A DNA stretch of 64,000 nt from Karstenula rhodostoma CBS 690.94. Lineage: Eukaryota; Ascomycota; Dothideomycetes; Pleosporales; Didymosphaeriaceae. The position numbers and the translations under genes are program-made. Positions 3,386-48,100 of the stretch are shown here, in pieces; within the stretch, counting starts at the first letter, position 1; each line of letters begins with the position of its first letter. Below the pieces are notes generated by a model. The model saw only the letters and a list, made by a program, of their open reading frames with translations. It was not told the origin of the DNA and did no database searches. Location of the stretch: contig MU001492.1 in the NCBI GenBank assembly GCA_010093485.1, positions 150,228-214,227 on the forward strand, written 5' to 3'.

Positions 3386-4756
3386 GGAGTTGGTAATGTT
3401 GATGTCGTTGGGTTGGAAGATGTTGCGAAAGATATAAAGCCGCCGCGGTCGCTGTGAGTCACGCGAACCGTGCGGCTACTGTCGGTGTCGGTGTTCTGCG
3501 ATCCTCAAGCTCCTTTGCGGCATAGTCGCGTATGAAATGGGAATGCTAGCTGCGCGCGATGCTTTCGTTATCTTTATCAAGCTTCGAAGATTGCATATTT
3601 CGGCATGTGACTTCTACCGTTGAAATTCGCAATTACTGGATGAGCTAAAGAGGCAAGCGATCTAATCAGAAAGCGATAACGATCAAAAGAGTAGGCCAGC
3701 GGGAGGACCCAGCTTGATTTGTTGGTCAGATCAGGAAAAGTGGTTCGTACGTTAATTGCAAGATTCTACGGTGTTTACGTAGATGTTAGCAAAGGAAACT
3801 CACGGGGTAAGACGCGGGGTCGTTTAGATCTTTGGGGTACAGCCGAGGCGCAGGGGTTATTGTGGTCGCCGATTCACGTATCGAGAATCCTACCGCCTAA
3901 CGGAGATTCTTCGGTCAGATCCGAGGTGGTTCATGATCGACACAAATGCCTGCACAACATGCAGAAGGATGCAGACGAAGCTGCGCACGAAAAGGGCAAA
4001 AGGTATGATTGACGACAACGTGAAAGAAGAGATCAGCTTCAAGACCCATCCTGGATGTAAGCTTCTTAGCGATGTGCACCGTATCCAAAGATAGTGGTGA
4101 GGTGTCGTTGGTTTTGAGTGGGGTCTAGCGCAGAACACTACCACAACGTCGCCGCCACTGAACCGTCTGCTTGCACTCACGTCCCAAGAGTTCTTGGCCA
4201 TATCTTGTACGTACGTACGGCAAGCTCATAGTCTAGGTCGGGTCCACCTTTTCGTTTTTTCCGATCGCCGAAGATAGCTGCTCCTACATGACGGCCCCTA
4301 GAAGCAGCACAACCCCGCCCCATCATCGCGAGACGCCAAACTATGCGATAAGAAGGGCAGATTTTCCGCTCCCCTGTCGATCTGAACCCTGCCCCTGTGG
4401 AGGCTTTTTCTCACCGGTGTTCGTGTCCCTCGTATTCCGTACCCAAAGCGCTCGCAGCCTCGGCCCCCACCCAATGACGTCGAACCACCCCGTCCCCCCT
4501 CGTGTCCACCCCCAGCCTCTGTGTTCCTCGCAATCAAACCCCGTAGGACGAGCCAGCAACGTGGCGCTCGCAACTCCTGATTCGCCTACTCCCTCTCGTG
4601 TCCTCAGCCGCTCCCTCCCCCGTTGCCCAGGTGCTATGATGTCGCATCCGCGCAAACATATACGAACAGAAGCCAGGCCCGCCTTTCGAAACGTTTCGTT
4701 TCGTCGCCATAGTCCCATCCCCTCTGAACGCCGTGCCATACCCCACGACTCGCGCC
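3386..4756. other. intergenic region between divergent genes
   Basis: About 1.4 kb between two divergently transcribed genes, so it probably holds both promoters. The stretch 4290-4750 is C-rich and open in several frames, but it shows no domain and is more likely 5' UTR or promoter of the gene that starts at 4757. Confidence 0.45.
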
Positions 4757-5916
4757 ATGCTCCAGAGTCCCGTCAGTCCAGAAAGCCCGGATGTCAAGCA
4801 TGGCGCGCGGGCATTCCCTCGCATGCACAATTACGAGCCGGGACTCGAGGTAGCCGAGAACCAGAACCGCGAGAAAAACGACAGAGACCCCGTCGTGGTC
4901 GTGCACTCACCCGTGGATGTCGACTCCCACGGCCGCTGGGCAGAGGCGCCGCAGCCGATCGATTCCACCTCCCCGCAGGCCATGGGCGATGCGGCGTTGG
5001 AAGCGGATCGCGGCACCACCGGCCGGACGGCATCGGATGCAGCCAAGGCTGAGAAGGGGTCGACGCTGGGCGGGAGCGAGAAGGGCGTGGCGAAACGCCG
5101 GTGCGGACTCGGCGGGAAGGCGTTCCTGCTTGTTATTCTCCTGGCGACGCTTCTTGCGGCCGCGGTCATCGGTGGCGCCGTGGGAGGCACGCAGGCGAAG
5201 AGCAAGCCATCGTAAGTGCAGTGCGCAATCGCATCGTCGAACCAAACCAAACCAACCCACCACCCCACGACTACTCCTAACCCTCTTCTCCCAGCCCAGC
5301 ACCAGTCACCACCTCAAACACGACCCAGCCACCCACCACCACCGCTCCACCAACAGGGGACAACCCCACAGCCTCAGAGCCGACCGGCCCCCACGTCCGC
5401 TTCCGCCTGCAAACCCACGACGACTACGCCTACAGGGGCACCATGCAAGTCTTCGAAGACGCGGGCCTCTTCCGTCCCCAATGGCCCATCCTCTCGTACA
5501 CGTGGACGCCCGCGCGGAGCGGCGATCTAAGCGACACGTCGCTGCTGCGGTGCTCGGTGGCGTTTTGCGCGAACCAGACGGTGCTGGGGTGGTGGGGGGT
5601 TTCGGTGCGGAAACAACCCGGTGACCCGGGGGGAAACCATTCCACCAACTTCATCCATATTGCGTGTGATGAGATGAATTTGAATCCCGAGTGTAGGGGG
5701 TTGGGGGAGGAGGGGGCGGGGAGGTGGGCGGCTACCAAGGATGATTACTCGCAGGTTCCGATAACGGTGACGGCGACGGGGACGGGGACGGGGGAGGGCA
5801 GGATGGAATCGACGACGGAGGCTACCGCTACGTCGGCGGTGAAGTCGAAGGGGAGTGAGAGGGCTACTTCGAGGTCGGGGGCGGAGACGAGTTCGGCGAG
5901 CAGAAGTCGCAGGTGA
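4757..5916 (+). CDS. single-pass membrane protein, Thr/Ser-rich, function unknown
   Basis: Two exons, 4757-5211 and 5295-5916, separated by an 83-bp intron with a GTAAGT donor and a CCCAG acceptor. The product is about 358 aa. The N-terminal ~115 residues are polar and probably cytosolic. A run of small hydrophobic residues (FLLVILLATLLAAAVIGGAVGG) after a KRRCGLGGK stop-transfer-like basic patch forms one membrane span. A Thr/Pro linker follows, then a Cys/Trp-containing extracellular-type part (residues ~190-300) and a Thr/Ser tail. The layout (short cytosolic head, one span, S/T-rich ectodomain) is common in fungal cell-wall sensor-like proteins. I do not recognise the family. The ATG at 4757 is the first in frame. 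Confidence 0.6.
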
Positions 5917-19133: not shown

Positions 19134-19177
19134 TGATGAGAGTGGGACTCGAACCCACGCCACTTACGTGACCAGGA

Positions 19178-19194
19178 AATAGTGTTAAGAGATA
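19178..19194 (-). other. canonical tRNA intron (position 37/38)
   Basis: 17 nt between G37 and base 38. It contains CTTAA at 19189-19185, which can pair with the anticodon-loop TTAAG, the usual anticodon-intron helix recognised by tRNA splicing endonuclease. Confidence 0.8.
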
Positions 19195-19207
19195 CCTTAA
19201 CCTGGCG

Positions 19208-19260
19208 CTAGGGATCTGTTAGTGACTGCTAAAGATAGCTAGCAAGCATTGTGAACTTAC
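19208..19260 (-). other. 53-nt spliceosomal-intron-like insertion in the tRNA D-stem
   Basis: The insertion starts GTAAGT, carries CACTAAC 14 nt before its end and finishes CCCTAG. This is the same donor, branch point and acceptor grammar, and the same length, as mRNA introns in this window. It contains a small perfect hairpin (TGCTA/TAGCA). Without its removal the D-arm cannot form; with it the tRNA is canonical. Confidence 0.75.
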
Positions 19261-19285
19261 CCATAACCAACTCGGCCATCTCACC

Positions 19286-45173: not shown

Positions 45174-48100
45174 CTACAGCGCGAGACCAGTTCCATCACC
45201 GCTCCAGCGGTACAGGCTGAGCATCTCGCGTCTCCGCAGCTGCGCGAACTCGGCATTTTCGTCCATGCCGCGCCCACGCACCTGCTGTAAAGCCGAGCGC
45301 ATCACCTTGCGGAAATTTCTCTGCAATGTTTGGTCAGCATCATCGTCTCTTATTCTCCGAGATTGTGGGGAGCGATGCATGTGAGGCGATTGAAACGACG
45401 AGGGATGGGGCTGAATGCAGCAAGTTCGCGTCCCAGACGGGTAATAGGGTGGAAGCACGAAGCTGCAACTGCGAAACCCGGGTACAGGTGCTTCAAGGGG
45501 AATTGCAATGTAAGAGTCTGGGGAGACTTACCTGGTACTCGGTATTGAGGGTTACGATACACGCTTCATGCGCTCGGACGATCGTCTCACAAGCCTTGAC
45601 GACGTTGGGGTTGGCTTCACCTTGCAGCTTGTCGGCTATGAGGAGCAACAGGAAGCTCCCCTGCAAGAGGTAGATTCCGAAGAAGAAAGGCATGAAGCTG
45701 AGATCAGGATCGAGTTCCAGAATTTCGTTGAGCGCTTCAGCAGCTGCGACCGCGTGGCCGGTAGCATCAATGAAGCTCTGGGATGATATCCAGAGATCAT
45801 TGTCGTCGAGCAGTGAGATGGGGTCCCATTTGCCGTTGAGTAGTATATGAAGGGTATGCATAATGTGCGTGCCGTACGCGACTACGATTCTTGCGCGCAT
45901 GAGCGACTCTTGAGCTCTAGTGGTCGTAGAGTTCACTGATCGAGCGGACGGTGTACCTGGGTGGATCGGTTCCTGAATTTCGGCGTTTGCGTCTGCGATG
46001 GCTCTTGCCTTCAACTCTCGAAGCGAATGGTCAAACACCTCTAGCTGCCGTGTGATTTCCGCCGCATGGTCGTCCCAATTGGTCTTTGAGCCGAATCGGG
46101 GATGGTTTCTTGCATGGTGGACTTCAACGATTTCGCCCAGAATACTCATCAAAGGGAGAAAGAATCCAAATGTGGATGTCCCAGTGCACTCATATATGGG
46201 TCCTGTGCTTCGTCGAACGGTAGGATCTGAGAATGATTGAGCGGAGTTTCCAAAGAGAGCCGGTGATTGCCATACGTCATCAGAAACAGGTGTCTGCAAA
46301 TCGCTGCACTCGATATCGAGCAGCGACAACGGCCTGTTGTAGCATAGTGCTAGGTGCCGATCTACTGTGTACAGCATCCACCAAACACGACGTCGCTCTT
46401 CTCGTTGCTCCTCGGTGAGATTGGCTGAAGCATTTTGACCAGATGAAGGACCGCCAACACGCTCTGATTCAAGGTCGGATCGGGCTTGTGGGTTTTCCTC
46501 GGGCGGTGGGGTCAACGGCACCTCTTTGCTAAGTTTCAACTCCCTAGCCAAACTCCAGGCAGCGTTCCACCATCGCAGCGACGCGGCCTTGTACTCACTG
46601 GCGCTTATGACGACTGCAAGATTAGCGTATGTACAGACATCATCAATGCCACCTGGAGCGCCAGCGGAGCTAGCTGCGTAGCTTCTCTGCCACATGCCTT
46701 CGCCAGGTAATCCTATTTCCGGGTCCTGTGTTGAGATGCCAAAGTTGTTCATCGTTTCACCGGAGCTGAATGTTGGGCTCGCGTCTTCGACTTGCGATTG
46801 GTGTACCAGGGGCTTCAGGAGGGATATGGTCAAGTTGATGAGCTTCTCCGACAACTGACTTCTTGCGGATGGTGACGAAGCCAGATACGGCGACTCGCTC
46901 GTCAGACATCCGATCCAGAGCATGCTAGCCAGCAGCGCTGGGCTACACACGCGTGGGGCATTGTGTCGCAAGAACGACTCTTTTCGGAACACGTAACAGA
47001 GCACGTATGGGCTTGTGGGCTGCATGAACGCAGTACTAGAGCTCTGAAAGTAGAGCTCCAGCAAATCACAGGCCAGAGAGACGGGCATTACAGTCGTCAG
47101 ATGAGGCACCAGGGGTGCAAGAACCGGGTATCGCAGTTGTTGGGAGCTCGACGGATGTGCGTTCGGGTATATGGTCGCAGACGGGGACGGCAGTGACAGC
47201 CAGCTTGGCGAGCCAGAGACAGGGGAGGTCGTGATGTAGCCCGGTAACGGTGATTCTGCATGAGGCATTCTGAACGAGTTCGGAGGCCCTTGTGCGCTTT
47301 GTGGACTCATCATCTCATAAGGGCTCTGTGCATATTCGGGCATGTTGGAGGGAATGATGGAATGCATCATCTGGTGAGGTTGCTGGTACGCACGATTGAA
47401 GTCGTCCATGGAGGCGTACTCTGGGATGGAATGACTGTGCATTGGCAAGCCCTGAGTCTGGATCCGCGGTGGCTGCATGGGATGGTGCATGCTCTCCCCC
47501 ATCTGGTCCTCCGGAATGGAGTCGATGGCGCTCATGCTCATGGTCCGTGATACTGGGTTGACGCCTGGGAACATGGCGGTGCTGTCCATATCACGGGTAG
47601 TAGCGATGCTGGCGGATCGCACAGGTTGTGGAAGGTTGGGCGGAGGCAAGTCAGGCAGAGGTCGTTGGCCCTCGGGTAGCTCAGCAGCCGGGGAGGACTC
47701 CTTCTGGTCGTCAGGATAACCCGTACCGCGCGACTGAGGGCTCCCAGACGTGGATTCGCCAGAGGGTGGAGCGGTGCCATTTGTGGCGGCTGCTGCTGCT
47801 GCTGCCAGGTCCTTTCGAGATGCCTTGCCGCGCTTCTTGCGCTCGCGCATGTACTCGCATGTTAGACCGAACTCTGCGATGTGGTTAGTGTCACGTTCGT
47901 TTGACAGCGGCGACAGCTGTCAAAAACGCTCGGTGGACCCTGTGGGACATACCTATACAGTGGGCGCACTACGCGACGTTAGCAACTAGTCAATGTCATC
48001 ACGGCGAAGTCAGCTACTCACAGGTGCCTTGCCATCGCACTTCGTCCGCAACTGATTACACTGATCACACGCTCGGCTGATTCTACGTCGCACTGGTCCT

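Follow-up and report, generated by a model that had tools for sequence, protein, structure and literature searches.

Candidate spliceosomal introns in nuclear tRNA genes of Karstenula rhodostoma

The interrupted tRNA-Leu(AAG) gene

The window, the whole stretch of 64,000 nucleotides of Karstenula rhodostoma DNA that was analysed, carries on its minus strand a tRNA-Leu(AAG) gene (19285-19134) that is broken in two places, by an insert of 53 nt and by an ordinary tRNA intron of 17 nt, as the original prediction had described. Viewed from the 5' end, exon 1 (positions 1-24; 19285-19261) is followed by the 53-nt spliceosomal-type intron in the D stem (19260-19208), which has the layout GTAAGT...CACTAAC...CCCTAG, and then by exon 2 (positions 25-37; 19207-19195) containing the anticodon AAG. 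The ordinary intron at 37|38 (19194-19178) separates exon 2 from exon 3 (position 38 to 73; 19177-19134), which holds the long variable arm and the T arm. The earlier placement of the insert at 24|25 agrees with the standard tRNA numbering. Within the insert the branch-site-like CACTAAC (19224-19218) lies closer to the 3' end than the 14 nt first given for it, with 10 nt following the motif and the branch-like A at 11 nt from the intron end. The sequence CTTAA in the 17-nt intron could pair with the anticodon loop, as judged by eye. The other Leu(AAG) genes share the sequence of exon 1 without change over the part that is co-linear with it.

The promoter boxes, scored against consensus sequences, are both intact, with the A box TGGCCGAGTTGG (19278-19267) placed upstream of the insert and the B box GTTCGAGTC (19154-19146) in the 3' part of the gene. 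A TATA-like TATAGA (19326-19321) lies 41 nt 5' of the gene, and a run of six T resembling a Pol III terminator (19094-19089) lies downstream of it. Taken together, the conserved bases, stems and Pol III signals of the gene are those expected of a nuclear tRNA-Leu(AAG), which it appears to be. Between the gene and the T run the trailer contains a hairpin CCGCTC..GAGCGG (19126-19112), variant forms of which occur at other Leu(AAG) genes; the Leu trailers of the window gene and of loci L010-L013 all have this hairpin or a variant, then TTCGGGA, before the T run. Another common trailer motif, similar to AAATCCTACGAAGTCGAGGAT, is found at the Arg(TCT), Arg(CCG) and Leu(CAA) genes.

The Rfam tRNA model covers the same span with 30.4 bits (cut-off 29) and an extra stretch in the D arm. 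ARAGORN calls no tRNA on the raw window, and when anticodon-loop introns of up to 80 nt are allowed the unspliced gene is misread as Val(CAC) with a score of 101.3. Taking out the 53-nt insert yields a call of tRNA-Leu(AAG) at 112.5 with a 17-nt anticodon-loop intron. In a control for chance, the rule GTNNG...CTRAH...YAG with a length of 42-74 nt was applied to both strands of the window, giving 157 intron-like segments, and removal created a tRNA only for three overlapping segments at this gene. None of 4,608 such removals made a tRNA in 20 random sequences of 64 kb that shared the first-order composition of the window. When every possible stretch of 40-71 nt around the gene was taken out in turn, 5,196 products in all, three scored above the GT-AG product and none tied with it; these three are Cys-like artefacts scoring 114.4-114.6.

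The likeness to mRNA introns of the window, also claimed at the outset, can be followed in a small sample of 11 candidate mRNA introns given by an open-frame rule, with a median of 51 nt (range 46-84) and similar signals, and in one protein gene. Introns of 53, 79 and 211 nt interrupt this gene, which encodes an XlnR-like protein (45493-47850, minus strand), and the 53-nt one has the same layout as the tRNA insert, GTGAGT...GCTAAC...TAG.

Interrupted tRNA genes across the genome and their splice signals

At least 25 tRNA genes with GT-AG inserts are present in the genome of K. rhodostoma, a filamentous ascomycete (Pleosporales, Didymosphaeriaceae). A DNA search with the window gene retrieves three further Leu(AAG) genes and two Leu(CAG) genes, all broken in the D arm, with inserts at 18|19 (four genes) and 10|11 (one gene) compared with 24|25 in the window gene. 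A further 19 interrupted genes were identified among fetched B-box candidates, by splice-aware scanning, by visual inspection, and by searching the genome with the joined exons of 11 tRNAs. The B-box patterns have 301, 185 and 125 matches, of which 100 each were listed and some of those fetched, so that 25 is a lower bound. The interrupted genes found comprise five Gly(GCC), four Leu(AAG), three His(GTG), two each of Leu(CAG), Pro(AGG), Pro(TGG) (one being a variant gene), Ala(CGC) and initiator Met, and one each of Glu(TTC), Val(TAC) and Arg(CCG). The anticodons of the Arg gene and the variant Pro gene are our own reading, as ARAGORN names them Gly(CCC) and Ser(TGA). Mapped onto the standard numbering, the inserts occupy 12 positions (3|4, 10|11, 13|14, 15|16, 18|19, 20|21, 24|25, 25|26, 38|39, 46|47, 53|54 and 60|61) and thus range from the acceptor stem (3|4) to the T arm (60|61). 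The ordinary 37|38 intron is also present in 23 of the 25 genes.

For comparison, at least 81 other tRNA-like places, at least one of them decayed, were collected from the Rfam and joined-exon searches and from some fetched loci; the Rfam search of the genome, in which 62 of 1,177 candidates were scored, served as a starting point only. A second joined query (Tyr, Thr, Arg, Asp and other isoacceptors) gives 38 matches that are nearly all unbroken, and the inserts are therefore concentrated in certain isoacceptors. A Leu T-arm pattern applied elsewhere matches 30 loci in viral contigs, among which no fungal Leu gene was recognized by eye, and has no match in genome contigs.

Several loci were left out of the 25. 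L088, L100, L101 and L103, on C9 and C3 with several clustered on C9, have a B box, a T run and a long stretch between the halves, and L089, L096 and L106 are partly decayed; for these seven, either GT-AG removal leaves no clear tRNA or decay was judged by eye. L106 and L096 have ...AACAG|TTCGA in the T arm and may be further split genes or decayed ones. On the minus strand of L011 (about C10:1112090-1112432) two split genes, one for Leu(AAG) and one for Gly(GCC), stand in tandem about 50 nt apart with T4 alone between them, perhaps forming a single transcript.

All 25 inserts have the form GT...AG with G at +5, an extended 5' splice site, and end in CAG (15 inserts) or TAG (10 inserts). Their lengths are 48-67 nt, with 21 of the 25 falling within 48-53 nt, a size that rules out group I and group II introns, whose catalytic cores are hundreds of nucleotides long. 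Each contains [CT]T[AG]A[CTG], the A of which is 9-13 nt away from the 3' end of the intron, two of these motifs being weak (CTAAG and TTAAT). Twelve of the inserts besides that of the window gene were found by exon similarity or by eye, independently of any filter on splice signals.

With anticodon introns of up to 40 nt allowed, ARAGORN calls a tRNA in 25 of 25 genes after insert removal, against 1 of 25 with the insert present; this single call is the Arg gene, at a lower score. The ends of all 25 resulting tRNAs are as expected to within two nt. Removal of the insert thus restores the tRNA in silico in every case. The exactness of removal was assessed by making every 40-71-nt removal around each gene and scoring the products on tRNA structure alone. 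For each of the 10 genes with acceptor-stem or T-arm inserts (five Gly, three His, the variant Pro and Arg) about 4,400-5,200 removals are possible, and none of the others scores as high as the GT-AG one. In the other 15 genes the insert lies in the D arm, the anticodon loop or the variable region, where scoring by structure often leaves the ends unfixed, with ties or higher-scoring removals. Removals that score higher number, for example, 6 in Leu C5 (with 34 ties), 28 in Pro C12 (27 ties) and 5 in initiator Met C8 (9 ties); Leu(CAG) C17 has none, and one tie.

Function, transcription and origin of the interrupted genes

The 53-nt insert is very probably a true GT-AG intron of the spliceosomal kind, with at least 24 others like it in the genome, and would belong to a Pol III precursor that is processed by the spliceosome and then by the tRNA endonuclease. 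Among the options of the original prediction, the one it put first, a spliced tRNA with a spliceosomal-type intron, fits best, and 24 further genes appear to be of the same kind. In the proposed pathway Pol III would transcribe the split gene and the major spliceosome, the presumed enzyme, would take out the 53-nt intron in the nucleus; the Sen complex and a ligase would then remove the ordinary 37|38 intron, this order of steps being the probable one, and end processing would complete the tRNA.

Every copy found of five tRNAs is interrupted, namely His (3/3), Leu(AAG) (4/4), Leu(CAG) (2/2), Ala(CGC) (2/2) and Arg(CCG) (1/1), and the joined-exon genome search, with 33 of 33 candidates scored, gives no uninterrupted copy of any of them. 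The search for other Leu(AAG) genes that the original prediction had proposed gives the same picture for the five additional Leu genes: two Leu D-arm patterns (16 and 6 matches) yield an ARAGORN tRNA at Leu(TAG) only and no uninterrupted Leu(AAG) or Leu(CAG). The His gene pattern (loop TTGTGG plus T arm GGTTCGANTCC) has one match, which is not a tRNA. Since histidine codons need tRNA-His, the interrupted His genes must work, unless the assembly lacks an uninterrupted one or an unusual one was missed, and since all found copies of the five tRNAs are interrupted, translation should depend on splicing of the inserts. As a separate observation, a decayed Leu-like tRNA gene (L074, C5:1284137) lies about 24 kb from an intact Leu(TAG) gene.

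The interrupted genes might instead be pseudogenes, with intact copies elsewhere serving the cell. Uninterrupted copies do exist for initiator Met, Glu(TTC), Gly(GCC), Pro(AGG), Pro(TGG) and Val(TAC), and decayed copies occur in this genome, but the truly dead relatives (Gly L201 and L202 and Val C4:727068) are visibly decayed and look different from the interrupted genes. The exons of the latter are intact while their introns differ: the uninterrupted initiator Met gene (C2:516155-516226) is identical over 72 of 72 nt to the spliced C5 and C8 genes, whose introns are at different places, and the His genes of C9 and C16 have exons that are 100% identical and introns that are 84% identical. The match between uninterrupted paralogues and spliced exons shows that the insertion was exact; the uninterrupted Val(TAC) paralogue has only 80% identity. 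Splice signals are kept in 25 of 25 inserts. The intact exons, together with the families for which no uninterrupted copy was found, argue against the idea of dead duplicates, which is considered very improbable. The same idea, raised for the window gene in the original prediction, fails for the families in which all copies are interrupted and was rejected for the window gene itself, whose exons are intact and for which no uninterrupted Leu(AAG) was found. A different enzyme could also be responsible, with the tRNA endonuclease removing the inserts as it removes the non-canonical introns of archaea and Cyanidioschyzon. Archaeal introns likewise occur at positions such as 3|4, 20|21, 25|26 and 53|54, and among eukaryotes such introns are described in nucleomorphs and a red alga (consulted portions of PMC4090602). 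The 4-bp central helix of the endonuclease type, which reaches three of four pairs in five genes, is nevertheless complete in 0 of 25 (24 testable) by a simplified test using two registers, and all inserts share GT-AG and branch-like signals that an endonuclease would not need. The helix test answers a point of the original prediction, according to which a bulge-helix-bulge at the junction would favour the endonuclease. Endonuclease removal of the inserts is judged extremely unlikely.

A further alternative concerns the polymerase, as spliceosomal introns are normally found in Pol II transcripts and their removal would be ordinary if Pol II transcribed the interrupted genes. Sixteen of the 17 split genes listed have a TATA-like element at a distance of 38-67 nt upstream, which would suit this explanation, as would the A box interrupted by the intron in three genes, Leu(CAG) C17, Glu and Val. 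Set against these are runs of at least four T within 44 nt downstream in 17 of the 17 split genes listed and a B box that is intact in 20 of 25 genes, the five losers being the five Gly genes; four of these five have an extragenic B box, GTTCGANYC, located 37-84 nt beyond the gene. The other 22 split genes have an uninterrupted A box, and inserts at 53|54 keep the B box with the final AG of the intron supplying its first G. Also against Pol II is the U6 snRNA gene, a Pol III gene in other organisms, which has B-box-like sequences at its 3' end and downstream here as well. Transcription of the interrupted genes by Pol II is judged distinctly unlikely, and the promoter signals point to Pol III as the probable polymerase. 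The U6 gene itself (L087, C3:1527600-1528250) is a full-length Rfam match and has no intron.

The downstream B-box pattern was noticed after the fact. Besides the Gly genes, both split initiator Met genes have a downstream GTTCGANYC, which is found at 0 of 18 other split genes (two with less than 150 nt of sequence to check) and at 2 of 51 uninterrupted genes, one of these matches being the next tRNA gene. The looser GTTCRANYC occurs downstream of 3 of 51 uninterrupted genes, the third being the uninterrupted initiator Met gene with its B-box-like GTTCAATTC. Because the uninterrupted initiator Met gene has a downstream box too, this box is not tied to splitting in the initiator Met genes. Some of the downstream B boxes at the split Gly loci L182, L195 and L183 resemble remnants of the 3' half of a second tRNA-Gly. 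An element with a B box, GTTCGAATCCCAC[TC]CTGATCTTTACC, recurs at C1:2714639, C2:1139731, C5:1811632 and C14:448842, each time with T runs after it, and perhaps represents a SINE-like family.

How the introns arose is a question compatible with the spliceosomal interpretation, and one possible answer is that introner-like or other mobile introns were copied into tRNA genes; Dothideomycetes are known to have introner-like elements. Of 264 cross-family intron pairs the most similar is that of Leu(CAG) C17 (L079, at 10|11) with Pro(AGG) C5 (L178, at 20|21), clearly alike though genes and positions differ (z 7.1; none of 4,000 shuffles does as well). This likeness suggests that one tRNA gene received a copy of the intron of another. 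Only four of the 264 cross-family pairs reach z 4, however, with 260 below it, and the window insert by itself has no second match in the genome search made with the window gene. The introner option of the original prediction has this one clearly similar pair in its favour, and as an origin of the introns it is regarded as unlikely. Among paralogues with the intron at one position, likeness is high for His (z 10.2-11.8), for the two Pro(AGG) genes (z 8.7) and for 7 of 10 Gly pairs (z 3.4-11.0), so the His, Pro(AGG) and Gly introns probably predate those duplications. By alignment the introns of initiator Met C5 and C8 are not alike, nor are those of the two Ala(CGC) genes. Compared with the other Leu(AAG) introns, that of the window gene is placed 7 nt further on, and it ends in CTAACAGATCCCTAG, similar to the CTAACAGTCCTAG at the end of the C10 Leu intron (alignment z 2.2); a shift or re-insertion relative to the other Leu(AAG) introns is possible. 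The three tRNA-His introns (L197, L188 and L187) share a possible internal hairpin CCTCT..AGAGG.

Comparison with known systems

It is likely, when the separate lines are combined, that translation in this fungus, and probably in its relatives, is spliceosome-dependent; that Pol III transcribes all His, Leu(AAG), Leu(CAG), Ala(CGC) and Arg(CCG) genes, whose products need both spliceosome and endonuclease; that an extragenic B box took over at tRNA-Gly; and that at least one intron was copied between tRNA genes. Ordinary tRNA finders miss such genes, which may accordingly be widespread and unnoticed. The splicing of tRNA and of mRNA is taught as two separate systems with separate enzymes, and if the interpretation is true both act on one precursor. 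Essential tRNAs would then need the spliceosome, directly tying splicing capacity to translation, and the genes would be a natural setting for testing whether Pol III transcripts are generally accessible to the spliceosome. They would also open a new place for studying how introns are gained under tight structural constraints, and might explain why essential tRNAs are overlooked by gene finders in fungal genomes.

The yeast U6 gene (SNR6) has its B box downstream of the gene, past the terminator. The extragenic B box at four of five split Gly genes, and at the initiator Met genes whether split or not, is similar to this arrangement, with the difference that the downstream B box here follows tRNA genes. 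The ordinary eukaryotic tRNA intron at 37|38 is cut by the Sen complex and has no GT-AG signals, whereas the inserts described here lie elsewhere and have GT-AG. In the portions of PMC4090602 consulted, tRNA introns outside 37|38, several per tRNA, are described for archaea, nucleomorphs and Cyanidioschyzon merolae; such non-canonical introns lie in the D and T arms and in archaea also at 3|4, and arm insertions in the tRNA genes of other eukaryotes are treated there as supposed pseudogenes. The introns of archaea and C. merolae are of the endonuclease, bulge-helix-bulge type, and the mechanism in nucleomorphs is unsettled; the present inserts differ in having GT-AG and a branch-like site and no complete bulge-helix-bulge helix.

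The consulted part of the tRNAscan-SE 2.0 description presents its search for non-canonical introns as one for archaea (PMC8450103), and the consulted parts of PMC4033280 and PMC11782384 contain no mention of spliceosomal introns in tRNA genes. No published report of spliceosomal introns in tRNA genes was found in the open-access literature, in keeping with the original prediction, which knew of no tRNA precedent. The nearest parallels are in other RNAs. The U6 snRNA of fission yeast has a GT-AG intron in a Pol III transcript that is removed by the spliceosome (PMC8917221, as far as consulted). The tRNA inserts resemble the U6 intron of S. pombe and others in being GT-AG introns in a proposed Pol III transcript, from which the spliceosome would likewise remove them, and differ from it in extent, with one snRNA gene in that case and at least 25 tRNA genes, 11 isoacceptors and 12 positions in the present one. 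Nuclear rRNA genes of lichen-forming and other ascomycetes have short spliceosomal GT-AG introns, and yeast removes a tested 57-bp one from Pol I transcripts (consulted part of PMC8527467). The inserts share with these rDNA introns a short GT-AG form in a structural RNA not made by Pol II, but those belong to rRNA and Pol I, whereas the present ones lie in tRNA genes. Spliceosomal introns in RNAs not made by Pol II are thus already known, and tRNA would be a new, essential RNA class for them.
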